In this document: one piece after another, positions 539 to 19,532 of the stretch
How positions within the stretch are numbered: the first letter of the stretch is position 1
Layout of the letters: every line of letters begins with the position of its first letter
Assembly: GCF_900156475.1 (NCBI RefSeq)
Contig: NZ_FTNR01000010.1
Span: forward strand, 1 to 64,000
Length of the DNA stretch: 64,000 bases
Reading direction: 5' to 3'
From: Natronorubrum thiooxidans
Lineage (GTDB): Archaea; Halobacteriota; Halobacteria; Halobacteriales; Natrialbaceae
Program-made: the position numbers and the translations under genes
Notes under the pieces: model-generated
What the model was told of the DNA's origin: nothing
The model's database searches: none
The model's input: the letters and a program-made list of their open reading frames with translations, nothing else

Positions 539-2359
539 TCAGATCAACGCTTTAGCTCCAGCACTCATACCGGTTGGGAAGTACCGATATTCGTTCTCGA
601 TGCGTGAGAGGGTCGCGTTGAACACCACCGCGTCGAGGCCGTAATCGTTGAACAGTGGCCCGATGTTGTGTTCGTTGGCGACGTGCCGGATGGCTGCCCA
701 CGGAATCGGATCTGACGTCGGGATGTACCGTTCTTTCTTCGCGTGCTTCCACGCCTCCCACACCTCGCGGCGGCTGAGCGGGCCTTCGGGTGCCGAGGGA
801 TGGCGGACGCCTGCCTTGCACAGGATGTACGTCAGCGCGTTGTACGCCACTTTGTACTTGTGTTCGTAGGCGAGTTCGTCGCTGATGATGACGAAGTAGT
901 CCTCTCGACTGCCGTGGTGGCCGAGCGGGTTGTTGAGGCGGTCACCCTCGCTAAACCCGGTGACATCACGGAGTGTCAAGTCCCACAGTTCGGACTGCTG
1001 ACGGTCGTCAGAATCGGTGTCAGAATCCTCGTGTCGATTACGTTCGCGGCGCGACTGCTCTCGGGCGGCATTCTTGCGGGCTTCCTCGCTGGCGGCGGGG
1101 TGGTACCCAGCCGGCTTTGCGGAGGCGGCGAGCGCGCGGATGTTGCCACCCCACTCCTGCACGTAGTCGTCGACATCCATCTTGTGCCCACAGGGACGTG
1201 GGGGCGTTCCCACCCGAACGTCGATGCCTCGGTCGGCGAGGCATTCGCCCGTCTTGACCGCACCCTTGATACCGTGACCGTGCTGCTCGATGCTGAGCAC
1301 GTCCGTTATGCGGCTGGGGTCGTCCCCTTCGAGACGCGCGACGTTCGCCTCCTCTGAGTCTTGGAGGATATAGACGCGCTCAATCTCGTAGTCGTTAAGA
1401 ACGCGGACGAGCCGCTCCTGCGCGTCGCCGCTGAACTGGGTGGTGACCGGCGAGATCGCCGAGATGCCCTGTTCGTGGAGCGTGTACGCGTCTGCGATGC
1501 CCTCGGTGATGACGGTCGGCTCGCTCTCCTCGATGGAGTCGAGGCCGCAGATTGGTTCCTTCAGAGGCACATTGTCACGGCTGATGAGCGGCTTGTCGTA
1601 CTTGCCGTCCTTCCAGTCGGACGGGTGGCCGGAGTCCCGCGAGATGGCGAACACGGGCTCGCCATCGTAGATGTACGGGATGACGTACCGGCCCTGCCAC
1701 ATCGTGTAGAGGTTGCCGTCATCGTTCTCGCCGAACAGGCCGGTCGCCAGCATCTCCTCGCGACTGAACCCCTGTTCGTGGAGGTGAACCATCAGGGCCT
1801 CGCCGTCTGCGGGCGCCCACCCAACCATCTTCTCCGCGATCAGGTCGTCGCTCCAGCCGCGTACCTCGACGAAGTATTCGCGCGGTGTGTCAATTTCGAC
1901 CTCGTCGACGCCGGCGAGGTCACGGTCGAGCTGTTCGTGGTAGTACCGGCACGCGACGTTCATCGCCGCGAGCGCGCGGTCGACGTCCACCTCCGGTTCG
2001 ACTTTCTCGTCCTCGTCGTCCGTCTCCTCCTCGTCGCGATCGTCGTCCTCGTCAGTGGTCTGCGGGACGCGTTCACCGACGTCTCCGGTGACCTCCTCGT
2101 CCGTGTCCTCGCGCTGTGCGTGACTGGAACCGGCCAGCCAGTACCGTCCGTGTTCGTCGCGTTCCAACCATCCCTTCGATACCGCCCGCTCGACTCGGGG
2201 GCGGGCGCGGTCAGCCGTCTCGAAGAACCGCCTCCCGACGAGGCGGGCGAGCGTGTCCTCGTCGACGCCGTCGAGCGGGTTGTTGCCCGCGTCGCCGTCG
2301 TCATAGGCCTCTTCGATGATTTCGATCCAATCGGTCTGGGAGAGCTTGCGGTGCGTCAT
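539..2359 (-). CDS. TOPRIM-domain DNA primase-like replication protein
   Basis: 606 residues from ATG at 2359; the frame stays open upstream, but that part lies inside the helicase gene. Residues 80-125 form an acidic linker. A basic-core primase-like segment (W-Q-G-R-Y-V-I-P-Y near 221-230, then F-A-I-S-R-D) is followed by a TOPRIM fold: VITEGIADAYTL near 283-294 supplies the catalytic Glu and RVYILQDSEEA near 328-337 supplies the acidic pair. This order is that of DnaG-type primases in plasmids and proviruses. The start is 5 bp after the stop of the upstream SF1 helicase, so the two are co-transcribed. The C-terminus ends abruptly beside a transposase gene and may be truncated by it. The role in replicating the element is inferred. 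Confidence 0.7.
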   Translation of the reverse strand: MTHRKLSQTDWIEIIEEAYDDGDAGNNPLDGVDEDTLARLVGRRFFETADRARPRVERAVSKGWLERDEHGRYWLAGSSHAQREDTDEEVTGDVGERVPQTTDEDDDRDEEETDDEDEKVEPEVDVDRALAAMNVACRYYHEQLDRDLAGVDEVEIDTPREYFVEVRGWSDDLIAEKMVGWAPADGEALMVHLHEQGFSREEMLATGLFGENDDGNLYTMWQGRYVIPYIYDGEPVFAISRDSGHPSDWKDGKYDKPLISRDNVPLKEPICGLDSIEESEPTVITEGIADAYTLHEQGISAISPVTTQFSGDAQERLVRVLNDYEIERVYILQDSEEANVARLEGDDPSRITDVLSIEQHGHGIKGAVKTGECLADRGIDVRVGTPPRPCGHKMDVDDYVQEWGGNIRALAASAKPAGYHPAASEEARKNAAREQSRRERNRHEDSDTDSDDRQQSELWDLTLRDVTGFSEGDRLNNPLGHHGSREDYFVIISDELAYEHKYKVAYNALTYILCKAGVRHPSAPEGPLSRREVWEAWKHAKKERYIPTSDPIPWAAIRHVANEHNIGPLFNDYGLDAVVFNATLSRIENEYRYFPTGMSAGAKALI

Positions 2360-2364
2360 TGCCC

Positions 2365-4140
2365 TTAGTCTGCATGTTGGGTTTCGGTGCTGTCTGTCGT
2401 GCTGTGCGGGAGTCCGTCGCGGAACAGCGGCATCTGCTTGCCCGAGAAGAACTCGCGGGCGATAACCAGCTCCTCGCTGGCCCGCGTCGCCGCGACGTAG
2501 TACAAGCGTCGTTCCTCGGCGCGGAACTCGTCGTCGTCCCACCACTTCTCAGCGAGGTTGCGCGGATAGCCGGCGAAGGTCACGACCGCAGGGGCCTGTC
2601 GCCCCTTCGCGGCGTGGATGGTGCCGATCTTGATGTTCTCGGCGGCCTCGCGTATGTCCACGCCCGGGGACTCAGCGGCGGTCAGCACCATCTTCTTGCG
2701 CCATCCACCAGTCTCGAGCTTCTGCGCGATGTCGGAGATGTCCGAACAGCCCGGGAAGGCCGTCCAAATCGGGACGTCGGGTGCATCCTCTACGTCCGCC
2801 GGCGGGCCGGCATAGTCGGCGTCGCACTGCCTCCACCGGCGGTCGCTCGCCACCGCGGCGTCGATGAGCTGGTAGGCGTCCTCGTAGTCGAGGACGTCTG
2901 TGCCAGCGGCCATCCCTCGGAGGAGTTCGGCGACGTCGATCCAGCGGTCAGTCCACGGGTGCGTCTCCTCGGGATCGGCGTACGCTGGCGCGAACTTCAT
3001 GCCAATCCCCGAGAACGGAACGCCCTGCTTTCGGAGCGCCCGAGCGATACTCTTCGCGTGTCGATTTGTTCGAGCAAGCAGGTACACGTCCCCGCCGTCG
3101 TCCGCATCGTGGCGGTCGAGGAGGCTGAGCGCAAGCTCCGCCGCCTCCACGTCCGTCCACAGGGACTGCTCCCGTGCAACACCCTCGTCGTCGAGCGCAC
3201 TGTTGATCCCGCTCTCGGGGAGGATGCCGCGGGCGACGCGAGTGACTGCCTCGGGGCATCGGTAGCTCTGCCTGCGGACGTTCTCGACGTCGACGGGCGT
3301 CTCGTCGAACAGCCACGGCTTCGCGCCCTTGAACGAGTAGATAGACTGGTTCTCGTCGCCGGCGATCACGGCGAGGTCGTACTGATCCGCGTCCATCCAC
3401 TCGCGGAGGATGAGGTACTCCGCCGGTGCGTAGTCCTGAAACTCGTCGATGAACAGCACGCTGCAGTCGGGCCAGCGCGCGTACTGCGGCTCTTCGTGGA
3501 GCTTCGTCGCGTACTCGCAGATGTAGTCGTGATGCTCGTAGAGCCCCTGCTCGTCCTTCCACGCGCGGTACTCGGCGAGGATGGCGGCAACCTCCGAGCC
3601 CGCGTACGTGGTGTCAACGGGCACCTCGTCAATCCACTCGGGCGTGAGTTCGACGCGACTAGCGTCAATGGCGTCGCCGTGCTGCATCAGCCACTGGTCG
3701 ATCGCGAGGAGCTTCTCGCCCTCGCTCATCTCCCGTGACTCGTCTTCCTCGGCCTTCCGCAGGAGATTACCGGAGGGCTTGAACCGGATGCCGCGGTCGG
3801 TGAAGAACTCGTGGATGGTGTCGTCGTCGCCCGCGCCCGTCACGATGTCGTCCCCGTTGACACCGTTGAGCGACTTGACGAGCGAGTGGAGGGTCGTGAC
3901 CCGCTCGGCCACGGTGTCGAAGTCGTCCGGCGTGAACGGGCCGTCGCCGCCGCAGAGGTCAATCACGAGGTCTCTGGCGTGCGAGTTCGTGAAGCTGATC
4001 CAGCGGAAGTCGTCCAGTTCGTAGCCGTCGTCAAGGAGTTCCTCTGTGCGGTGGAGGATCTCCGTGGTCTTTCCCGCGCCCGGGACGCCGCGGATGCGGT
4101 ACACGTCCGCATCGTTGAGTTCGTCGGCGTCAGGTATCAT
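2365..4140 (-). CDS. UvrD/Rep-like superfamily 1 DNA helicase
   Basis: 591 residues. Motif I GVPGAGKTTE is at 18-27, and motif II is seen as VLFIDEFQD near 228-236. Motif III GDENQSIYSFKGA is at 261-273. Later come motif V-like IGTIHAAKGRQAP and motif VI-like YYVAATRASEEL. All core motifs of an SF1A ATPase/3'-5' helicase are intact. The protein is shorter than cellular UvrD (about 700 or more), with a reduced accessory region, as is common in element-encoded helicases. It overlaps the preceding gene by 4 bp (ATGA) and is followed 5 bp later by the primase, so the three form one replication operon. It should act as an ATP-driven translocase during element replication; direction and partners are inferred. 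Confidence 0.85.
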   Translation of the reverse strand: MIPDADELNDADVYRIRGVPGAGKTTEILHRTEELLDDGYELDDFRWISFTNSHARDLVIDLCGGDGPFTPDDFDTVAERVTTLHSLVKSLNGVNGDDIVTGAGDDDTIHEFFTDRGIRFKPSGNLLRKAEEDESREMSEGEKLLAIDQWLMQHGDAIDASRVELTPEWIDEVPVDTTYAGSEVAAILAEYRAWKDEQGLYEHHDYICEYATKLHEEPQYARWPDCSVLFIDEFQDYAPAEYLILREWMDADQYDLAVIAGDENQSIYSFKGAKPWLFDETPVDVENVRRQSYRCPEAVTRVARGILPESGINSALDDEGVAREQSLWTDVEAAELALSLLDRHDADDGGDVYLLARTNRHAKSIARALRKQGVPFSGIGMKFAPAYADPEETHPWTDRWIDVAELLRGMAAGTDVLDYEDAYQLIDAAVASDRRWRQCDADYAGPPADVEDAPDVPIWTAFPGCSDISDIAQKLETGGWRKKMVLTAAESPGVDIREAAENIKIGTIHAAKGRQAPAVVTFAGYPRNLAEKWWDDDEFRAEERRLYYVAATRASEELVIAREFFSGKQMPLFRDGLPHSTTDSTETQHAD

Positions 4141-5243
4141 GCGTCGATCACCCGCTCGTCGGCGGACGTTTCGCTATCCTCGTCATCACCTCCCATCAGG
4201 TCAGTCTCGTCAATGTTGAGCGCCTCTGGATCGAACGGGTAGCAGTGAATCTGCTCCCCGTCGACGGTGACGCGGTGAGTACTGTTGATCGTGTGACCGT
4301 TGCGCTGGAGCGCACCGGACAACTTACCGTGGTAGCCGGTGCCCGACTTGTTCGTCTGCTCCTCGACAACCTCCTCGATGGCCTCGGACTTGACCCACAC
4401 TGTGGGCTCGTCGAACCGGCTGTCGGACGCATCCTCGTACAGGGCACCCCAGTGTCGGGAGATGAACTGTTCGCGGTCGCGGGTCGCGGCGGTGCTGCAC
4501 CGCTGCGCAACGCGATCCGTCACGCGGTCGGCGATAATATCTTCCTCTGTCGCCTGCTCGGTCATCGCCACGGTTTTCTGCGCGTTCCAGTCCTCCCAGA
4601 TCGCGTTCCAGTCCTGATCGCCAATCTCCGGTTCGACGAGGAAGTTCTGGTAGTACTTCGCCTTCACCGTCTCGGCGCTGTCGCTCCTCCACTCGGAGAG
4701 GTCGAAACGGAAGATCCGCGTGCCGTCGATGGGGGAGGATGTGGGTGATTCCACCCACACCATCACGGTGAGTCCATCGGCGGACTGATACGCCTTCACG
4801 TCGCTCGTAAGCTCCTCCACGAGCTTCTTCGCATCAGGCGTCATTTCTGTCGTCTCGTCGTCCTTCATCGTCAGGGCCAGCTCGCGGAGCTTCGTTTTCA
4901 GCCAGCCGCTGTTAAGATCGTCGCGGTCGGCGGCGTCCGCCATCTGGTTGCCGTACTTTTTGCGCTTCTGCTCGCTCTCGAACCAGTCGCGCTGCCAGTC
5001 GTCGCGGTACAGCATCTCGTCGTCCGTCGCGTCGCGGAGGCGGACGCGCATTTCGTCAGCGGAGACCTCGATGCTGAGGTGGTAGTTGTTTCCGATGTCG
5101 ATGACTAGCTCGTCGTCACCTGCGTCACCTTCGCCCGGTCGCTGAATTACCTCGATTTCCTGCATATTCGCTGGAGAGGGTGAGTCCTCCGAGCTGGAAT
5201 GGACGCGCCGATTAGGGGCGGCGCCGGGGTCTGGAGAGCCCAT
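4137..5243 (-). CDS. Uncharacterised acidic protein leading the replication operon
   Basis: 368 residues from ATG 5243, or 342 from ATG 5165 (MQEIEV). I prefer 5243 because a TATA-like element on the minus strand (5270-5280) lies about 27 bp upstream, which fits a leaderless message; there is no Shine-Dalgarno before 5165. The first 26 residues are Ser/Pro rich and may be dispensable. The body is acidic with short helical segments (WQRDWFESEQKRKKYG, then AKKLVEELTSD) and a C-terminal stretch resembling a small helix-turn-helix (YHGKLSGALQRNGHTINSTHRV). I recognise no catalytic motif. Its position ahead of a helicase and primase suggests an initiator or loader function, which is only inference. 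Confidence 0.6.
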   Translation of the reverse strand: MGSPDPGAAPNRRVHSSSEDSPSPANMQEIEVIQRPGEGDAGDDELVIDIGNNYHLSIEVSADEMRVRLRDATDDEMLYRDDWQRDWFESEQKRKKYGNQMADAADRDDLNSGWLKTKLRELALTMKDDETTEMTPDAKKLVEELTSDVKAYQSADGLTVMVWVESPTSSPIDGTRIFRFDLSEWRSDSAETVKAKYYQNFLVEPEIGDQDWNAIWEDWNAQKTVAMTEQATEEDIIADRVTDRVAQRCSTAATRDREQFISRHWGALYEDASDSRFDEPTVWVKSEAIEEVVEEQTNKSGTGYHGKLSGALQRNGHTINSTHRVTVDGEQIHCYPFDPEALNIDETDLMGGDDEDSETSADERVIDA

Positions 5244-5269
5244 TGGACTCGCTCGAGCATATCCGGGAA

Positions 5270-5280
5270 CAACATAAAAG
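5270..5280 (-). promoter_or_regulatory. TATA element for the replication operon
   Basis: On the minus strand this reads CTTTTATG-like, centred about 30 bp before the ATG at 5243. It is one half of a divergent promoter pair and implies a leaderless transcript. Confidence 0.5.
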
Positions 5281-5321
5281 ATACACGCTACAGGGGGTGA
5301 GATGTATACGGCTCGGGCCAC

Positions 5322-5333
5322 TCTTTTATATTT
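5322..5333 (+). promoter_or_regulatory. TATA element for the winged-helix gene
   Basis: CTTTTATATTT on the plus strand lies about 25 bp before the ATG at 5354, the usual haloarchaeal spacing for a leaderless message. Only about 50 bp separates it from the opposing element, so a protein bound here could control both directions. Confidence 0.6.
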
Positions 5334-5353
5334 CCATCTATAACCAACACACG

Positions 5354-5632
5354 ATGACGGGTCAGACTGACGCGCCGCCACAGCTCTCCAAGACGGACAC
5401 CACGCTCCTTGGTCATCTCCGTGACGGACGGAGCACGCCTTCCATCCTCAGTGATGAAGACGATGTCTCCAGCAGCAGATCGTACGTCAGCAAACGTCTC
5501 TCCAAGATGCGTGACCAAGGCCTCGTCGAGCTGGTTGACGACCGGCACATCAGCCTCTATCAGATCACCCCAAAGGGCGATCGGGCTCTCGACGCGTGGC
5601 GCGAACTCCGAACAGCACTCGCCGAATCCTGA
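5354..5632 (+). CDS. Small winged helix-turn-helix regulator (PadR/MarR-like fold)
   Basis: 92 residues beginning MTGQTDAPPQLSKTDTTLL. The pattern L-L-G-H-L-R-D-G-R, then S-S-R-S-Y-V-S-K-R-L-S-K-M-R-D-Q-G-L-V-E and a wing with YQITPKGDRALD, is a standard archaeal winged helix of the kind used in element-borne repressors. The start is chosen from the TATA element about 25 bp upstream; a longer frame upstream has no promoter support. It is divergent from the replication operon with the two TATA elements close together, so it is a good candidate copy-control or immunity-type repressor. Target and ligand are unknown. Confidence 0.75.
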   Translation: MTGQTDAPPQLSKTDTTLLGHLRDGRSTPSILSDEDDVSSSRSYVSKRLSKMRDQGLVELVDDRHISLYQITPKGDRALDAWRELRTALAES

Positions 5633-6484
5633 CCTCTTCTTGCACATCTTTGGACTTCCTCACAACCAGTAGTGGTCTTTGCACCCTTATGCACGCGCGT
5701 TGAGGGGGCAGGTGGGGGGATACATACCCCTCTCTGCCGGATCGGGGGCGGGGGGTGAGGAATTTCGGCAGTAGAACCCTACCATATGCTCAATAACAGG
5801 CAGTAGAGCAATTGTTAGGGTCAAACCATCCCCAACATTCACCGCCGTTGTCTGGCGATTGGAAATGTGGGGGCAAATCACGCTCTACATTTCCCGGCCT
5901 AGTCGGGAGGTTCTTGAAACCAGATCTAAGGATTATGGCGCTCAAAGGTGGGTTAGCGGCACGTTCGGCGGCAACGCGCCCGCGTAAAGGGGCCAACACC
6001 TCCCGACTGGGTTCGTAGTACCGTGGCGGGATCTCGGCGGCGAACCCCGTCCTGCGTGAGGTTTACACCGGTTCAGGGCCTACTATCGGATGGAGCCGGT
6101 TGCTGGTTCCCGTGGTCTGGAGAGCCCACTTTCCTGCGCCTGCTTTCTGGGCGTAGGACGCTTCACGTCCCGCCAGCCCTACATCTGTTTCGCGTCTACG
6201 ATGCGGTGTAGCCGGATTCTGGGTCTTCTTTCTGAGGTAAGGGGGGATCAGATAAGGCGGCGTCGAAAGCTGAAGGACTCGGTTGGCATCAGCAAGCGAT
6301 GGCGCGCCGTACTGGCGAACGCTGTAGTGCCGTACGTGGCGTCTGAGGGTGTGGGTGACGTGGAGGTCATACGAGAACGAAGAGGCCAAATCTGCGTCTG
6401 TGAGCGGGTTCCTCGAAGCGATGTCGGCGTGGAAGGTTCTATAACCTTCTCGCCGAACAGGGAATGGAGATATTCCCCGGACTC
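5633..6484. other. 850-bp gene-free region rich in inverted repeats (candidate structured RNA or origin)
   Basis: No reading frame here looks coding: composition and residue usage are unlike the neighbouring genes. Several strong stems are visible. They are: 5707-5738 (GGCAG...CTGCC with G4/C4); 5803-5888, closed by GTAGAGC/GCTCTAC with an inner CCCC-ACATT-CGCC/GGCG-AATGT-GGGG; 5898-5911 with 5998-6011 (14 pairs including one wobble); 6147-6176; 6304-6342 (GCCGTAC/GTACGTGGC); and 6424-6456 (TCGGCG + GAAGGTT / AACCTTC + CGCCGA). The wobble in the third stem is U-G only if the plus strand is transcribed, weakly favouring that strand. The region lies beside the replication genes, so a replication origin is the main alternative. 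Confidence 0.5.
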
Positions 6485-6997
6485 CTATTCTTTGGGCGGA
6501 TACCAGAAGACCGTCTTTTCTACCTCCTCTTCGGAATAGTAATCAGTGAAGTAGTGGCGTTTACGAATCTCGATCTCGTCTAGTGAGATTACCTCTGGCC
6601 ACGCGACGCGTCGAAGCCTTTGACGTCCCATTGTCGGATGCTTAGGCTTGGACACTGTTCCAACCTTTCCTATCTGACCGGGAAATACCATCTTCGTCGC
6701 CAAGACTGTACAACTTAAGTCAGGGATATAGACGAGAAGTGCAAATTTTCCTCGAGTAACAAGTTCTACCCACTGGTCGTCCCAGACAGCAAATTTCCCG
6801 ACTGACCCATCTTCGTATTCGCATGCACAGGACTTGATCTCAATTGGCTCATCGTCTTCAGTGCGCGCATCGTGCCACGACGCATGATCCTCAATGAGGC
6901 CATATTCCTCGATTACGTGTGTTTCGGCTCGCTTCCAGCGCGGCGGTGGATCACTATGAGGGAGCATCTGTTCCTGCCACGAATACAACGACTTCAC
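6485..6997 (-). CDS. Putative PD-(D/E)XK-fold nuclease
   Basis: 170 residues from a GTG at 6997 (an internal ATG lies 10 codons on). Residues 35-60 contain H-A-S-W-H-D-A-R-T then E-P-I-E-I-K-S-C-A, matching the D...E-x-K core of restriction-endonuclease-like folds, followed by a G-K-F-A-V-W-D-D-Q-W segment often forming the next helix. The C-terminus is rich in aromatic and acidic residues. It is lower in GC than the core genes further right. It stands alone between the structured non-coding region and a direct repeat. A role in defence, element processing or DNA repair cannot be separated from sequence alone. Confidence 0.55.
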   Translation of the reverse strand: MKSLYSWQEQMLPHSDPPPRWKRAETHVIEEYGLIEDHASWHDARTEDDEPIEIKSCACEYEDGSVGKFAVWDDQWVELVTRGKFALLVYIPDLSCTVLATKMVFPGQIGKVGTVSKPKHPTMGRQRLRRVAWPEVISLDEIEIRKRHYFTDYYSEEEVEKTVFWYPPKE

Positions 6998-7046
6998 TGT
7001 CGACCACCTCGTACAGTACGCCTGAAATCGGACGTCGTTCGGATGC

Positions 7047-7215
7047 TGGCTAGTATAGACATGCCTGTCTTGGCTCCGGTGAACGGAATCTTGTCGTCGC
7101 TACCGCGGCTCCAGCTGGCTTCTGTTGCTGGGGCCAGTCTCGAGGATCTTCCGATCGGTTATAGCAATTTTGTCAGAATCGCGATCTCGGATAGATCATC
7201 GAATTTGCTGTCTAT
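7047..7215 (+). repeat. Direct repeat, copy A
   Basis: About 170 bp that align with 13930-14100 in the same orientation. Shared blocks include ATGCCTGT, GCTACCGCG/GGTACCGCG, CTGTTGCTG, TCTCGAGGATC and CGCGATCTCGGA in the same order with similar spacing. It has no coding potential. It may be an element end or an old recombination site. Confidence 0.55.
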
Positions 7216-7351
7216 CTGGATGTGCTACGAGTAATAGAATGCTTCCGGAAAATCGTCTCCTTACCTTCTTGCTCTTCTTTCGAACACGAGGAAGAATGAG
7301 TGGTTCTTGCGTGCTCGTCGTTGCTCGTACGTGCGGCCAATCGTCGATGCG

Positions 7352-9527: not shown

Positions 9528-10505
9528 CTACAACTGACTGTGTAACCGCTGGATCCGGCCGGCAAAGGTCGATCGAAGGGCCCGTGTGGCCGATAGGAGC
9601 CATTGGTGATACGCGTCGTATCGGTTCACGGCCCGAAGGTCAAACTCGCCCTCGCTGTACTGGGTGGCGATGACGTCACGGATTTTGTCCTCTGACCCGC
9701 GTTCCCACGTGATCTCGGCGTCGCCCCTGATGCGAGAGCGTAACTCCTCGCCGATCTCCTGTCGGTTGGCTTCGAACGCGTCGAAGGCGGTGTGGTCGTC
9801 GTCCTTGTCGATCTCCAACCGGACGGCGAGGCCGGTTCCCGTGGCCCGCAGCGATAGCCGGTAATCGCTGGTCGAGATGTCAGCAGCGATAGGGAGGTGA
9901 TAGACGTGCGGAGCCGAGGAGGAATGGGGGTGGACATCCCCGCTAGCGAGGGCCTCGTTACCCTCGTCTTCAGCGATCGCGACGAACTGCTTGAAGAACT
10001 GCTCCTGATAGACGCCGCGATCGACGTCCTCGCCGTAGGGCCACTCGGTCGGCTCAACCTCCGGCACGAGGCGGAACGCCGCCCGGTTGCACCCCTCGAT
10101 TTCGACCACCTCGGCCCGTAGTGCAAACACGGCCCGGTCGGCGGTCTCGTTATGGTCGCGCACTGCCTCGCGGTGGCCATCGGTGAACTCGCCGGCGATC
10201 CACACGATCACATCGGCGTCAAGGTTCGCCGAGTAGGTGTTCGCCTTCCCCCAGTGGTCGTGGTCGGAGCGGCCGAACTGGTTCTCCACAACGACCTCCA
10301 CACCGAAGGTCTCATCCCGAGCGTAGATGTCGACGAAGTAGCCCTCGACCTCGCGTTCGAGTTCCTCGGCGACCAGACCGTGCAGGCCAAGCACCTCCCG
10401 CAGGTAGTGGATGTTGTCCTTGTCAGCCAGCCACGCGCTGAAGGACTCCTCGTCGGCCCAGTACTCAGAGAAGGGAGGGCGCTGGAGAGTACTGAATTCC
10501 GTCAT
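9528..10505 (-). CDS. DUF4268-type protein with PD-(D/E)XK nuclease-like domain
   Basis: 325 residues from ATG 10505 (MTEFSTLQRPPFSEYW); a TTG three codons upstream is possible. Residues 50-115 contain YFVDIYARDETFGVEVVVENQ, then GRSDHDHWGKANTYSANL and VIVWIAGEFTDGHREAV. This is the family signature: Asp...Glu-x-Asn-Gln followed by D-H-x-x-x-G-K-x-x-T-Y, with a nuclease-like core. The C-terminal half is the DUF4268 region. Such proteins occur in mobile islands and near restriction systems; biochemical function is unproven. It is a single gene with its own upstream spacer and no visible partner methylase. Confidence 0.75.
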   Translation of the reverse strand: MTEFSTLQRPPFSEYWADEESFSAWLADKDNIHYLREVLGLHGLVAEELEREVEGYFVDIYARDETFGVEVVVENQFGRSDHDHWGKANTYSANLDADVIVWIAGEFTDGHREAVRDHNETADRAVFALRAEVVEIEGCNRAAFRLVPEVEPTEWPYGEDVDRGVYQEQFFKQFVAIAEDEGNEALASGDVHPHSSSAPHVYHLPIAADISTSDYRLSLRATGTGLAVRLEIDKDDDHTAFDAFEANRQEIGEELRSRIRGDAEITWERGSEDKIRDVIATQYSEGEFDLRAVNRYDAYHQWLLSATRALRSTFAGRIQRLHSQL

Positions 10506-10530
10506 ATCCCACAATGTTGTGGCCCAACGT

Positions 10531-10750: not shown

Positions 10751-11083
10751 TTACTCGTCTTGCCGTGCGTTTGCGTCCGCGCCGAAGCTCTGCCGGGGCT
10801 GGTATCCGTACTCGCGAAGCAGTCCGTGGAGTGCTTGTCCGACCTCGTGGCGCACATCGGTCTCCCGGATCACCGCCGCACGCTCGGTTTCATCGGTGGC
10901 GAGTCCAGAGCGTTCCTCCGCGTCGCTCTCCATCTGTACCTCGTTACCCTCCTCGATCTGTGACTGTGCGAACGCGTCTATCGCATCCGCGAAGTCCTCG
11001 TATCCGCTGAACTCCTCGACCGCATCTTCGGCCGCTTCCTCGGCCTCGGCCATGTGTTCTGCAACGTCGTAATCACGTGACAT
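10751..11083 (-). CDS. Acidic hypothetical protein
   Basis: 110 residues from ATG 11083 (MSRDYDVAEHMAEAEEAAED). Strongly acidic and helical, with repeated Ala/Glu blocks and a C-terminal LHGLLREYGYQPRQSF. Nine more upstream codons are open but begin in a hydrophobic stretch without promoter support. No known domain is visible. It is convergent with the tentative small gene at 10531. Confidence 0.6.
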   Translation of the reverse strand: MSRDYDVAEHMAEAEEAAEDAVEEFSGYEDFADAIDAFAQSQIEEGNEVQMESDAEERSGLATDETERAAVIRETDVRHEVGQALHGLLREYGYQPRQSFGADANARQDE

Positions 11084-11288
11084 AGGGACGACGAGGAACA
11101 GCAAGCACATTAATTTGGTTGGTGTGCCGTCGTCTGGTCACTTCATCGGTTTCGTTTGAATTCTCTATCCGTCACAGCTGTAGGGAAGACCTGATCACGG
11201 CCTCATTCCATCGACTATCAACGAATCGGTGTAGGTCAGTATGATTCCCTCTATGCAGGAGGGCAGTCGGAACTGGGATATTTACCCT

Positions 11289-11368
11289 ATAGCTACTGAG
11301 AACACACTACTCCACAGTACCCTCACTAAGGAAAATACTGAGTGGTAGTGTGTTGTTCTGTGGAGTAA
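11289..11368 (+). promoter_or_regulatory. Two interleaved inverted repeats before the winged-helix gene pair
   Basis: AACACACT (about 11290) is matched by AGTGTGTT (about 11348), and ACTCCACAG (about 11299) by CTGTGGAGT (about 11360). The arms are interleaved rather than nested, so they cannot form one hairpin; two operator half-site pairs or a pseudoknot are possible. The region ends 5 bp before ATG 11374 and contains GGAG as a possible ribosome binding site. Confidence 0.5.
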
Positions 11369-11373
11369 GGGGA

Positions 11374-11952
11374 ATGACGACGATGACTATAACCGGCGAC
11401 GGAATCTCCATCAAGCGCGAGGTCTCCGAGGAGACGGCACTCGAAGTCATGGAGGTCGCAATGAGTGACGAAATGAACGACGACGCTCCCACCGTCACCG
11501 TGGCCCTGAGCGGCGAGGGCATGGAGTTCGGTCGAGAGGTGTCCGAAACGGCCGGCGTCGAGGCGATGGACGTCGCCGTTCATGGAGGTTCACGGATGGT
11601 TGCCGAGAGAGAAGACGAAAGTGCCGGCGCTGACGGACTCCCGGACGACTTCTTCGACCGTCTGTCGACACGGCAGCGAGTCATGTTGGAAATCCTGCTC
11701 GAATCAGACGGAGAGTGGATGCGCGGCACCGATATTCGGCAGAAGATGCGCGAGGACTATGACATGGACGTCGGCGAGGGCGGCCGGGCAACCGCCGGTG
11801 TCATTGCCGGACTCACCCGGAAGTACAACGAGGAGTTTAGACGAGAGATGATTCCCGGACAGTGGGCCGACGAGACCCAGCAGCACGCGGAGTTCAAGAT
11901 CGGTGAGAAGTACAAGGAAGAGATTCAAAGAGGCCTCAAGGAGGAAGGATGA
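11374..11952 (+). CDS. Winged-helix protein with duplicated N-terminal beta module
   Basis: 192 residues. The first 65 contain two similar segments: TITGDGISIKREVSEETALE and VALSGEGMEFGREVSETAGVE, each followed by a V-M-E-V-A or A-M-D-V-A end. The second half (LPDDFFDRLSTRQRVMLEIL...WMRGTDIRQKMREDY...) is a winged-helix-like domain with a conserved E-F-R-R-E-M-I-P-G-Q-W tail and AEFKIGEKY end. That domain is repeated as the whole of the next gene. ATG 11374 is chosen because the eight codons upstream lie within the inverted repeats. The two genes overlap by 4 bp. No name is recognised; a paired DNA-binding regulator is the likeliest role. Confidence 0.65.
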   Translation: MTTMTITGDGISIKREVSEETALEVMEVAMSDEMNDDAPTVTVALSGEGMEFGREVSETAGVEAMDVAVHGGSRMVAEREDESAGADGLPDDFFDRLSTRQRVMLEILLESDGEWMRGTDIRQKMREDYDMDVGEGGRATAGVIAGLTRKYNEEFRREMIPGQWADETQQHAEFKIGEKYKEEIQRGLKEEG

Positions 11953-12272
11953 CCCGCGATACGCTCCCCGATGACTTCTTCGATCGGCTGTCCCCGAAGA
12001 AGGAGGCACTGTTACAGGTGCTGCTTGACGCTGAGGGCGACTGGGTTCGCGGCGTCGATATTCGAGAGCGGATGCGACAGGAGTACGGTCTATCCGTCCC
12101 CCACCATCCCGGCGCAATCGCCGTCCATCTCGGCCATTACACGCAATGGTACTCCGAAGAATTCCGGCGGGACGTGATTCCCGGCAGGTGGGTCGATAAC
12201 AGCCGCACGCACGCAGAGTTCAAAATCGGCGAAAAGTACGAGGACGAATTGCGCGAATGGTTCGGTAAGTAG
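11949..12272 (+). CDS. Single-domain paralogue of the preceding winged-helix protein
   Basis: 107 residues starting at the ATGA overlap. It aligns with the C-terminal half of its neighbour throughout: LPDDFFDRLSPKKEALLQVL against LPDDFFDRLSTRQRVMLEIL, then G-D-W-V-R-G-V-D-I-R-E-R-M-R against E-W-M-R-G-T-D-I-R-Q-K-M-R. The ends correspond as EEFRRDVIPGRW and HAEFKIGEKY. It lacks the N-terminal beta module. This is a clear tandem duplication followed by divergence, with translational coupling. The pair might form a heterodimer; that is inference. Confidence 0.7.
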   Translation: MTRDTLPDDFFDRLSPKKEALLQVLLDAEGDWVRGVDIRERMRQEYGLSVPHHPGAIAVHLGHYTQWYSEEFRRDVIPGRWVDNSRTHAEFKIGEKYEDELREWFGK

Positions 12273-12418
12273 TCGCAACTGTCTGTTCCCACGTCCTCAA
12301 CAAGTAGGAGATCACCGACGACCTCTAGGAGCGGTGCGAGGGGGTGGCCAATGTGACCGGCGATGACACCACCGAAACATTCTAAAATCTCGACTGTGCG
12401 ACTATTAATCTACACAAG

Positions 12419-13120
12419 ATGGTAAGCAAGCGGGAAACTCTTCTTGGGATATTTTATTACCTCGCCGGTTTAGCCGTTACTCTCGCCAGCCCGGAATTGG
12501 AAGTTCCTCAGCGGTTCGTGGTATTCAGTCTGTTTGCATCGATTGTTTTTGTTATTGAGTCAGGAAGGCGGGTTCTGAAGAGGAGAAAAGAAGATGCAAT
12601 CTCACGGGAGCCACAGGTTGAAGTATTGCTCGACGGGTTAATAGAAAAGTATCGAGAGCGATCTGACTGCCACCTTCGCGCAAACGTCATGGTGCCGTTC
12701 GAGAATCGTCCAATCCAATCACAGTTTCTTAAACGACGATCCTACACGACGCTTGAGTTCAAAGACCATACTGGTGGATATTCTGAGCAAGAACTAGAAT
12801 TATCATACGAGTCTGGACAGGGATCATGCGGCCTCGCTTGGAGACGATGCCGACCAGTAATATATGGAGAAGGTCAGAGAGAAGCGGCAGAGAAAGCGAT
12901 GACTGATACCCAATTAGAGAAGGCCGGTCACGTAGAATCAGTCCTAAGTGTTCCAATCTACGAAAACGAGAGACGCCCAGAGAATCTTGTTTGTGTAGTG
13001 AATGTCGACAGTGAAGATAGCCTGTCCGAAACTTGTTTTACAGAGGACGATATAATGTCGTACACAGAGCGTCACGCGGACGTCATAGCGGCCACAGTGG
13101 AGGAGGACTATCATGCCTGA
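12419..13120 (+). CDS. Membrane-anchored GAF-like sensor protein
   Basis: 233 residues. Two N-terminal membrane segments (about 9-25 and 32-48) are separated by a short loop, then a basic stop-transfer RRVLKRRKED. The cytoplasmic part (75-230) resembles a GAF domain: S-Y-E-S-G-Q-G-S-C-G-L-A-W near the middle, later LSVPIYE and LVCVVNVDSEDSLSE, and a final helix with E-R-H-A-D-V-I-A-A-T-V. The codon choice is noticeably more AT-rich than neighbours, hinting at separate acquisition. It overlaps the next small gene by 8 bp. A ligand-sensing signalling or defence effector is possible; no catalytic output domain is present. Confidence 0.6.
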   Translation: MVSKRETLLGIFYYLAGLAVTLASPELEVPQRFVVFSLFASIVFVIESGRRVLKRRKEDAISREPQVEVLLDGLIEKYRERSDCHLRANVMVPFENRPIQSQFLKRRSYTTLEFKDHTGGYSEQELELSYESGQGSCGLAWRRCRPVIYGEGQREAAEKAMTDTQLEKAGHVESVLSVPIYENERRPENLVCVVNVDSEDSLSETCFTEDDIMSYTERHADVIAATVEEDYHA

Positions 13121-13292
13121 ACAAGAAGCCCGATCCGACGACAAGGGGTACGATACGCTTGAATATGCGAACGAGCAGGGCGGTCAGGTTGGTTCGCTGA
13201 CGTCCGATGAGCTGTACGAGGTTCTGGATACGGTTCAGTCCAGAGAGATGGCTGAACAAATCCAGCGGAGCTACACTAAACGACAAGATTAG
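13113..13292 (+). CDS. Small acidic partner protein of the GAF-like membrane protein
   Basis: 59 residues from ATG 13113, overlapping the end of the GAF-like gene by 8 bp. Sequence begins MPEQEARSDDKGYDTLEYAN and continues with a helix L-T-S-D-E-L-Y-E-V-L-D-T-V-Q-S-R-E-M-A. No domain is recognised. Codon use and composition look coding, and the overlap indicates translational coupling with the membrane protein. Confidence 0.55.
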   Translation: MPEQEARSDDKGYDTLEYANEQGGQVGSLTSDELYEVLDTVQSREMAEQIQRSYTKRQD

Positions 13293-13929: not shown

Positions 13930-14100
13930 CGTCGTACTTGGATATGCCTGTATTGATGCCAGTGAATGGTTCGTGTTGCGGGTACCGCGTCTTCACTAGT
14001 CTCCTGTTGCTGAGGCTGATCTCGAGGATCCTCTTGCTTATTGTAAAAATTTGCCAGAGTCGCGATCTCGGACTGATTGCTGAAGACTACGCTCGAGAGT
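13930..14100 (+). repeat. Direct repeat, copy B
   Basis: Second copy of the 170-bp repeat seen at 7047-7215, same orientation, 6.9 kb apart. It lies between the small gene at 13584 and the FAD oxidase. An apparent reading frame through it is not coding because the frame is not shared by copy A. Confidence 0.55.
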
Positions 14101-18031: not shown

Positions 18032-18448
18032 CTACCGCAACTGGTAGCGGTCGTCGTCGTCGTCCAGTTCGTCGAGCAGTAGGACCTCGTCTTCTTCTTC
18101 CTCGAGTCGATCCTGTAAGTCGTTGACGTAGGCTTTGTACTCGTCGAGTTGTTCCCGCAGGTGGTCGGCCTCGAGCTCGAGCCGTTCGTGTTCGCGGATG
18201 AACCGCTTTGGGACTTCGACGGTCGGCGGGAACGATTTCTCACCGTCGCCATCATCGCGGCCCCCAGTCTTCGTCTCGAGGTCGTCTTCCGGAACGACGG
18301 CGACCTGTCCGTCGTGGTCGACGAGCAGGTCGACGTAGTCCCGAAACACCGCGGACAACGAGATGTCGCGTTCGGCAGCGATGTCTTGCAGCGCCTCGAA
18401 CGCGTCCTCGTTTACGCGAAACGAGATTGTCTTGTTCTTGTTGCCCAT
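18032..18448 (-). CDS. Ribbon-helix-helix regulator with coiled-coil tail
   Basis: 138 residues. Residues 1-45 (NKTISFRVNEDAFEALQDIA, then S-A-V-F-R-D-Y-V) form a CopG/Arc-type ribbon-helix-helix. After an acidic linker, residues 75-125 are a coiled coil (HERLELEADHLREQLDEYKA). It would bind DNA as a dimer through the N-terminal strand. The target is unknown. It overlaps no gene and its promoter region is shared with the VOC gene on the other strand. Confidence 0.75.
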   Translation of the reverse strand: MGNKNKTISFRVNEDAFEALQDIAAERDISLSAVFRDYVDLLVDHDGQVAVVPEDDLETKTGGRDDGDGEKSFPPTVEVPKRFIREHERLELEADHLREQLDEYKAYVNDLQDRLEEEEDEVLLLDELDDDDDRYQLR

Positions 18449-18566
18449 TGATCGCTACATTATCCGTCATCCCACTTAACCGTTCGTCAGACCCGACAGA
18501 GACGACTGTTCGACAGTCTCTTCGCTGGACCAGACTGGCTATGGGCCTCGAGGCCCACTCGCTGGT

Positions 18567-19532
18567 ATGCTTGCTGATACGCCCGGCCTCCACCACGTGA
18601 CTGGGATTGTCGGGGACGCACAGGCGGCGATCGACTTCTATACGGGCGTCCTCGGCCTCCGACTCGTCACGCAAACGATTAACTTCGAAGACATTCTACA
18701 ACATCACCTCTATTTCGGCGATGCGGACGGAACGCCCGGAACGGTCCTAACGCAGTTTCCGGATCCCCACGGCGACGCCGGCCGGGTGGGAACGCCACAG
18801 GTCGAATCGGTCGCGTTCGTCGTTCCGGACGACGCCCTCGCGTACTGGCAGGAGCGACTCGATGATCACGGGATCGCGGTCGAGGGGCCGTGCGAGCGAT
18901 TCGGCGAGCGAGCCCTTCGACTCGAGGATCCCGTTGGAACGCAACTCGAACTCGTCGGACATCCACGGCCGACGATCGATCGCGCCACCGTCGAGCCGTG
19001 GGCGGCCGGACCGGTTCCGACGGACGTGGCGTTCCGCGGGCTCTCCGGCGTCTCGGTCCTGTCGGTCAATCCCTATGCAACGGCAAGCACACTCGAGACG
19101 CTGGGGTTCGAGCATGAGGCCGAACATGCGGCTCGGATTCGGTATCGAGCGTCAGGGACTCGAGCAACGGTCGTCGATATCCTCGATCGCAACGCGCCGT
19201 TCGGCCGCGAAGGACAAGGCACGATTCATCACGTCGCGGTTCGCGTTGGGAGCGAAGAGGAACTCCACGAGTGGCGTGCACTCTTCGACGACCGCGGCTA
19301 CGACGTTTCACGGGTCAAAGACCGTCACTTCTTCCACTCGCTGTACGTCCGCGACCCGGGCGGTGTCCTCTTCGAACTGGCGACCGACACCGGCGGCGTC
19401 GCCGCGAGCAACGATGGCGACCGCTCGGGTGAATCGCTGTATCTCCCCAACTGGTTCGAACGGGATCGCGACCTAATCGAGAGCCAACTACCGACGCTGA
19501 CGGTGCCGACGACCCACACACGCGACCGATGA
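18567..19532 (+). CDS. Two-domain VOC ring-cleaving dioxygenase (MhqO-like)
   Basis: 321 residues with two vicinal-oxygen-chelate modules: PGLHHVTGIVGDAQAAIDFY at the start and GTIHHVAVRVGSEEELHEW in the second half. Metal ligands His and a late Glu (GGVLFELATD) are present, as is YLPNWFE, a common end in this family. Such enzymes are extradiol-type or glyoxalase-like and in bacteria are linked with quinone detoxification. It overlaps the next gene, a small serine hydrolase, by 4 bp (ATGA), the same gene pair as bacterial mhqO-mhqD. Confidence 0.8.
   Translation: MLADTPGLHHVTGIVGDAQAAIDFYTGVLGLRLVTQTINFEDILQHHLYFGDADGTPGTVLTQFPDPHGDAGRVGTPQVESVAFVVPDDALAYWQERLDDHGIAVEGPCERFGERALRLEDPVGTQLELVGHPRPTIDRATVEPWAAGPVPTDVAFRGLSGVSVLSVNPYATASTLETLGFEHEAEHAARIRYRASGTRATVVDILDRNAPFGREGQGTIHHVAVRVGSEEELHEWRALFDDRGYDVSRVKDRHFFHSLYVRDPGGVLFELATDTGGVAASNDGDRSGESLYLPNWFERDRDLIESQLPTLTVPTTHTRDR

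Follow-up and report, generated by a model that had tools for sequence, protein, structure and literature searches.

Constrained non-coding DNA next to the replication genes of a haloarchaeal mobile element, a candidate replication origin or control region

The minimal replicon of pRN1, which belongs to a Sulfolobus plasmid family, consists of a repressor and a replication protein with a stem-loop of ~100 bp. This stem-loop has a 21-nt stem and a 58-nt loop, is required for replication and has been proposed as the origin (PMC4234260, PMC3869888). The 64,000-nt stretch of haloarchaeal DNA analyzed here, termed the window, contains a locus that resembles pRN1 in having a repressor-type gene, a primase/helicase module and a long, non-coding stem-loop of ~100 bp (here with 14-bp arms and an 86-nt loop). 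However, pRN1 encodes a single primase-polymerase/superfamily 3 helicase protein, whereas a UvrD-type helicase and a DnaG-type primase are found here. The pRN1 stem-loop is downstream of the replication gene, whereas the region studied here is upstream of the operon and carries a G-rich palindrome and a CGCGCG box in addition. On these comparisons pRN1 is the closest known analogue, with a likeness in outline. Because the replication proteins and the gene order differ, we do not class the interval, a predicted origin, as a member of the pRN1 family.

Two other described systems share features with the interval. Like haloarchaeal orc/cdc6 origins, which have ORB elements with a G-string (PMC3528665), it is non-coding, lies beside replication genes and combines G-rich repeats with an AT-richer stretch. 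It differs from them in that it has no match to the ORB consensus and no orc/cdc6 gene was noted adjacent to it, and related elements use repeats of their own. The interval therefore lacks the hallmarks of an orc/cdc6-type origin, which would have ORBs with a G-string next to orc/cdc6. The ornate phage RNAs GOLLD and ROOL (PMC12286853) are similar in length, have many stems and also occur in a mobile-element setting. In contrast to these RNAs, the interval has no Rfam match, no covariation support and no adjacent tRNA island; only two copies were found, and the fold is lost in the homologue.

A non-coding interval next to a divergent operon

The interval (positions 5633-6484, 852 nt) is a genuine gap between two genes. 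Directly upstream is a gene encoding a 92-aa winged-helix (wHTH) regulator (5354-5632, plus strand), which matches Pfam HVO_A0261_N below the cut-off and PHROG 2440, a transcriptional regulator, with an E-value of 3.5e-11. On the other side, convergent with the interval, is a gene for a PD-(D/E)xK restriction-endonuclease-like protein (6485-6997, minus strand; PHROG 2095, unknown function), whose low-confidence model folds like NhoI, DpnI and PvuII (best E 4e-4, prob 1.0). A divergent operon on the far side of the wHTH gene, on the minus strand, comprises p3 (4137-5165), which is its first gene and has homologues in related elements, a UvrD-like superfamily 1 helicase (2365-4140; Pfam UvrD 9.7e-18, PHROG 1967 3.6e-52) and a DnaG-type primase (539-2305; Pfam DNAG_N 9e-7, PHROG DNA primase). 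The p3 product is possibly a DNA-binding protein, as the fold of its low-confidence model (mean pLDDT 66) bears a weak resemblance to that of TcpK, a protein that binds oriT (prob 0.98, E 0.09). Thus, the interval has the setting of an iteron or stem-loop origin, in that it is non-coding and adjoins the p3-helicase-primase operon. The element continues past the start of the contig (C37), which is position 1 of the window, so its left boundary is outside the window; integration of the element is plausible.

The sole detected homologue of the interval is in a genome of a different family, termed G189, to which window positions 580-7346 align at 91.6% identity. Within the interval the two sequences differ by 32 substitutions and five separate 1-nt indels. 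Because no reading frame is kept across these changes, the interval is non-coding, in agreement with an earlier, sequence-only reading of this DNA. The divergence of the interval is 3.8%, apart from the indels, compared with 8.5-11% in the neighboring non-coding DNA and, at fourfold sites, 15% in the helicase gene, 17% in p3, 18-21% in the primase gene, 28% in the nuclease gene and 8% in the wHTH gene. The most conserved block, at 5900-6130, has a single substitution over 230 nt (0.4%). The comparison clearly points to constraint on non-coding DNA that adjoins a replication operon, and the interval is therefore probably functional, although this estimate of conservation rests on two sequences, for which selection and recent recombination are not fully separable.

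Recent recombination between the two elements might explain the low divergence, in which case the stems would be incidental. Such recombination is conceivable because the 3' part of the wHTH gene is nearly identical as well, with two differences in 5449-5640 (1.0% nucleotide divergence), a segment that is almost entirely coding. The patchiness of the divergence, with these two differences and the single one in 5900-6130, fits such an event, and the comparison is limited to two sequences. However, divergence between and beside the near-identical patches is 4-6%, which is still below that of the flanks, and the module common to distant elements, described below, does not depend on the comparison with G189. 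We regard recombination as the main cause of the low divergence as very unlikely.

Further DNA homologues were found neither in the window's own family (125 genomes), nor in that of G189 (146 genomes), nor in another family (170 genomes), nor among phages and plasmids, and a search of viral contigs with exact patterns produced none. Matches of 27-35 nt in other genomes were, where inspected, coding matches and were set aside.

A module shared upstream of p3

Relatives of the element were found by a helicase search, and the DNA upstream of p3 was examined in ten distinct haloarchaeal elements with p3 and a UvrD helicase, the window included. Viral and genome collections scanned for the helicase gave only generic UvrD relatives. 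Most of the related elements have a large gene in the position of the primase gene, which is recognizable by sequence as a primase in only some of them. A CGCGCG box together with a G-rich palindrome (typically AAAGGGGGGTCGATTTTCGACCCCTTT) is present no more than 800 nt upstream of p3 in seven of the ten elements, compared with an expectation of 0.19 derived from the remainder of these loci; the search expression was written after examples had been seen, so this probability is only indicative. Short repeats adjoin the module in most of these seven, and in several relatives tandem repeats of ~9 bp (GGTAGGGTT, CAAGAACCC, CCCGGTTTA and GTGGTCAGG) lie beside it. When a stricter version of the module was sought across the class, 8 of 145 genomes gave a match, of which one (G088) has an examined p3 operon, and the control count was similar or larger. 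Therefore, the module carries information only when its position is considered as well.

The window's copy of the module, at 5693-5738, is inside the interval. It consists of the box ACGCGCGT (5693-5700, plus strand) and the palindrome GGCAGGTGGGGGGATACATACCCCTCTCTGCC (5707-5738), which is the counterpart of AAAGGGG(G)TCGATTTTCGACCCCTTT in the relatives, is invariant in G189 and can form a hairpin (z -3.0 on the plus strand and -2.1 on the minus strand). Located 3' of the module, at 5761-5830, is the AT-richest stretch of the interval (57% AT at about 5761-5820). It holds a direct repeat, GGCAGTAGA (5767-5775 and 5799-5807), and the inverted repeat ACCCTA/TAGGGT (5776-5781 and 5816-5821), and we propose it as an unwinding region. 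Tandem iterons were not found in the window's copy, where the repeats are just this two-copy 9-mer and the inverted hexamer.

The strongest long-range feature of the interval is a stem-loop at 5898-6011, in which 14-bp arms (CCTAGTCGGGAGGT at 5898-5911 and ACCTCCCGACTGGG at 5998-6011) enclose the 86-nt loop. The arms form 13 of 14 pairs and are invariant in G189, and the z-scores are -3.6 on the plus strand and -3.4 on the minus strand. Dyads with 14-bp arms and loops of 74-86 nt occur in the window and in two relatives (L083 and L087), and were equaled in 0, 1 and 0 of 100 shuffles, respectively; no long dyad beyond chance was found in the remaining seven elements. Conserved dyads and repeats are thus present at the same place in related replicons, with the box and palindrome in seven of ten and the long dyad in three of ten.

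On balance, the interval is cis-acting DNA and most likely the replication origin and control region of a mobile element of haloarchaea. This element is predicted to replicate by means of the p3, UvrD-like helicase and DnaG-like primase that it encodes. According to this model, p3, the small winged-helix protein or both would bind at the palindrome and the repeats. Then either the AT-rich stretch would open or the dyad, as the proposed origin core, would extrude a stem with a single-stranded loop. The helicase would be loaded at the opened or extruded site, and the primase would subsequently start synthesis. This model is favored by the shared module and long dyads, by the tandem repeats near the module in several relatives, and by the position adjoining the helicase-primase operon. 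Stems that are roughly symmetric between the strands, strong conservation without a compensatory pattern, the weak likeness of the p3 model to TcpK and the precedent of the pRN1 replicon are also consistent with it.

Several observations argue against an origin. The module and dyad span only ~5693-6011, and in several relatives the non-coding DNA that precedes p3 amounts to just 260-800 bp. Tandem 9-bp repeats like those of the relatives are absent from the window, whose own repeats are fewer and otherwise arranged. L078, the element closest in layout, lacks the long dyad, and the module expression was post hoc. Moreover, no orc/cdc6 gene was noted beside the interval, and the comparison with known ORB motifs that had been suggested as a check of the sequence-only reading gave no match in the interval to the canonical haloarchaeal ORB, GAAACNNNNGGGG, with up to one mismatch.

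An operator would be an equally good explanation for a palindrome near an operon. The interval might accordingly be a transcriptional control region, containing operators, a leader or the 3' UTR of the wHTH switch and of the divergent replication operon, in which the hairpins would be terminators or sites for regulators. A winged-helix regulator gene adjoins the interval and the divergent operon is nearby, dimeric regulators fit palindromes, and the modules of several relatives are directly upstream of p3. In the window, however, the module is beyond the wHTH gene and more than 500 nt from the start of p3, which is an unusual position for an operator, and conservation over 850 bp is long for such a region. 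We consider this explanation quite unlikely.

If the interval is an origin, it would define the start site of a putative replicon type, with p3 and a UvrD helicase (and a primase in several members), that extends across several haloarchaeal families. A described origin for this replicon type was not found in the literature searched. The origin would have a short signature, namely the CGCGCG box, the G-rich palindrome and short repeats, and could be of use in building haloarchaeal vectors.

The layout most like that of the window is seen at L078, where ~1 kb of non-coding DNA (12107-13133) is downstream of a small winged-helix-like gene and the boxes TTGAAACAGTGGGG and CGACGGAACC are repeated. 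The count of the ORB-like TTGAAACAGTGGGG repeats is not beyond chance. Sequence similarity between the two gaps was not detected, the wHTH genes of the two loci are not clearly homologous, and the only match to the L078 gap within its family is 25 nt long.

Predicted stems and a possible structured RNA

The 3' part of the interval (6012-6484, ~470 bp) is conserved, although partly less so, and lacks a counterpart in most relatives, in which less non-coding DNA precedes p3. It is outside the explanation as an origin, and could represent either an auxiliary part or something separate, for example an RNA.

Six strong stems had been claimed for the interval. Five are present (5707-5738, 5803-5888, 5898-5911 with 5998-6011, 6147-6176 and 6424-6456), with z-scores of -2.5 to -5.4 relative to shuffles, whereas the sixth, at 6304-6342, has a z-score of only -0.2. 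A dyad formed by GGAAATGTGGGG and CTCTACATTTCC (5861-5894) has a mean pairing probability of 0.89. The short hairpin at 6147-6176 has z-scores of -2.7 (plus) and -2.5 (minus). The hairpin TCGGCG..CGCCGA at 6424-6456 is weakened in G189, from -19.4 to -12.7 kcal/mol, by a deletion and substitutions. Strong specificity for the plus strand was not borne out, as single stems are about equally stable on the minus strand; one mispair of the dyad at 5898-6011 does, as had been stated, read U-G on the plus strand alone. This dyad shows somewhat greater plus-strand stability in G189 (z -5.0, compared with -3.2 on the minus strand).

These features could reflect a structured non-coding RNA of ~800 nt on the plus strand, possibly continuing the wHTH transcript and similar to GOLLD or ROOL, to which it is close in size. 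In addition to the plus-strand preference of the dyad in G189 and the very low divergence of the interval, the fold of the whole interval has a z-score of about -3 on the plus strand (-3.15) and about -1 on the minus strand, and a long-range closing stem is predicted (5652-5664 with 6399-6411). This global signal is modest. Across 70 other combinations of 852-nt stretch and strand sampled in the window, the mean z-score is -0.7 (sd 1.2), and 2 of the 70 reach -3 or lower. Furthermore, stability specific to the plus strand is not retained in the homologue, which is 96% identical but has whole-region z-scores of only -0.87 (plus) and -0.40 (minus). Elsewhere in the window, ~18201-19052 (minus strand, z -5.6) and 11001-11852 (both strands, about -3) match or exceed the interval.

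The substitutions also give little sign of a conserved RNA structure. Sixteen of the substitutions that distinguish the window from G189, a single close homologue, affect predicted pairs; pairing is preserved by 8 of them and disrupted by the other 8, compared with 7.0 and 8.8 for random placement. No compensatory pattern was seen in the stems in this comparison of two sequences, and some indels land inside predicted stems. Rfam has no match in the interval even at an E-value of 10. The covariance search over haloarchaeal genomes that had been put forward as a check was conducted with a model of the core against 391 genomes, and recovered the two known copies and three weak, chance-like matches. 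The two weak matches inspected for genes (L044 and L045) are inside protein genes. A scan for bacterial-type terminators found no terminator-like site, which is weak evidence in an archaeon.

We therefore view an RNA of this kind as doubtful, and, with similar reservation, would apply this explanation mainly to 6012-6484, where the origin signals are absent. That the interval, or this 3' part, represents a new class of large structured RNA of haloarchaeal mobile elements, perhaps with an origin in the 5' part, seems somewhat more doubtful still. If an RNA is made, it would be a large and ornate one encoded by a haloarchaeal element, and no report of an RNA of this kind was found in the literature searched. 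The sequence-only reading had preferred an RNA and named an origin as its rival. Its location for the feature stands, and the rival gains from the box, palindrome and short repeats of the relatives and from the long dyad of some. Its preference for an RNA is mostly not supported, given the lack of a compensatory pattern and of an Rfam match, the loss of the fold in G189 and the strand-symmetric stems.

Neighboring features of the elements

A non-coding block of ~50-130 nt with the core CTCGAGGATCNTCCGATCGGTTATAACAATTTTGTCAGAATCGCGA is found upstream of the restriction-endonuclease-like gene. It occurs as a direct repeat in the window (7055-7190 and 13941-14072, ~75% identity). In another genome, the block has been retained in front of a homologue of the gene with 45% identity (L037, 10474-10519; 46 nt at 91%). 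Window positions 7261-7346 (minus strand) are the C-terminal remnant of a ParB/methyltransferase-like gene, of which G189 has an intact copy (L035, 10420-11817), and the element seems to have been truncated or recombined at this point. Farther along, at 9528-10514 (minus strand), the window encodes a DUF4268 protein that matches the PADLOC candidate defense family PDC-S11 (1.5e-57). The related element of G189 is adjoined by HerA-like, NurA-like, Rad50-like and Mre11-like genes (L035, 1033-8661), of which HerA was named by a match and the other three by our reading of the sequences.
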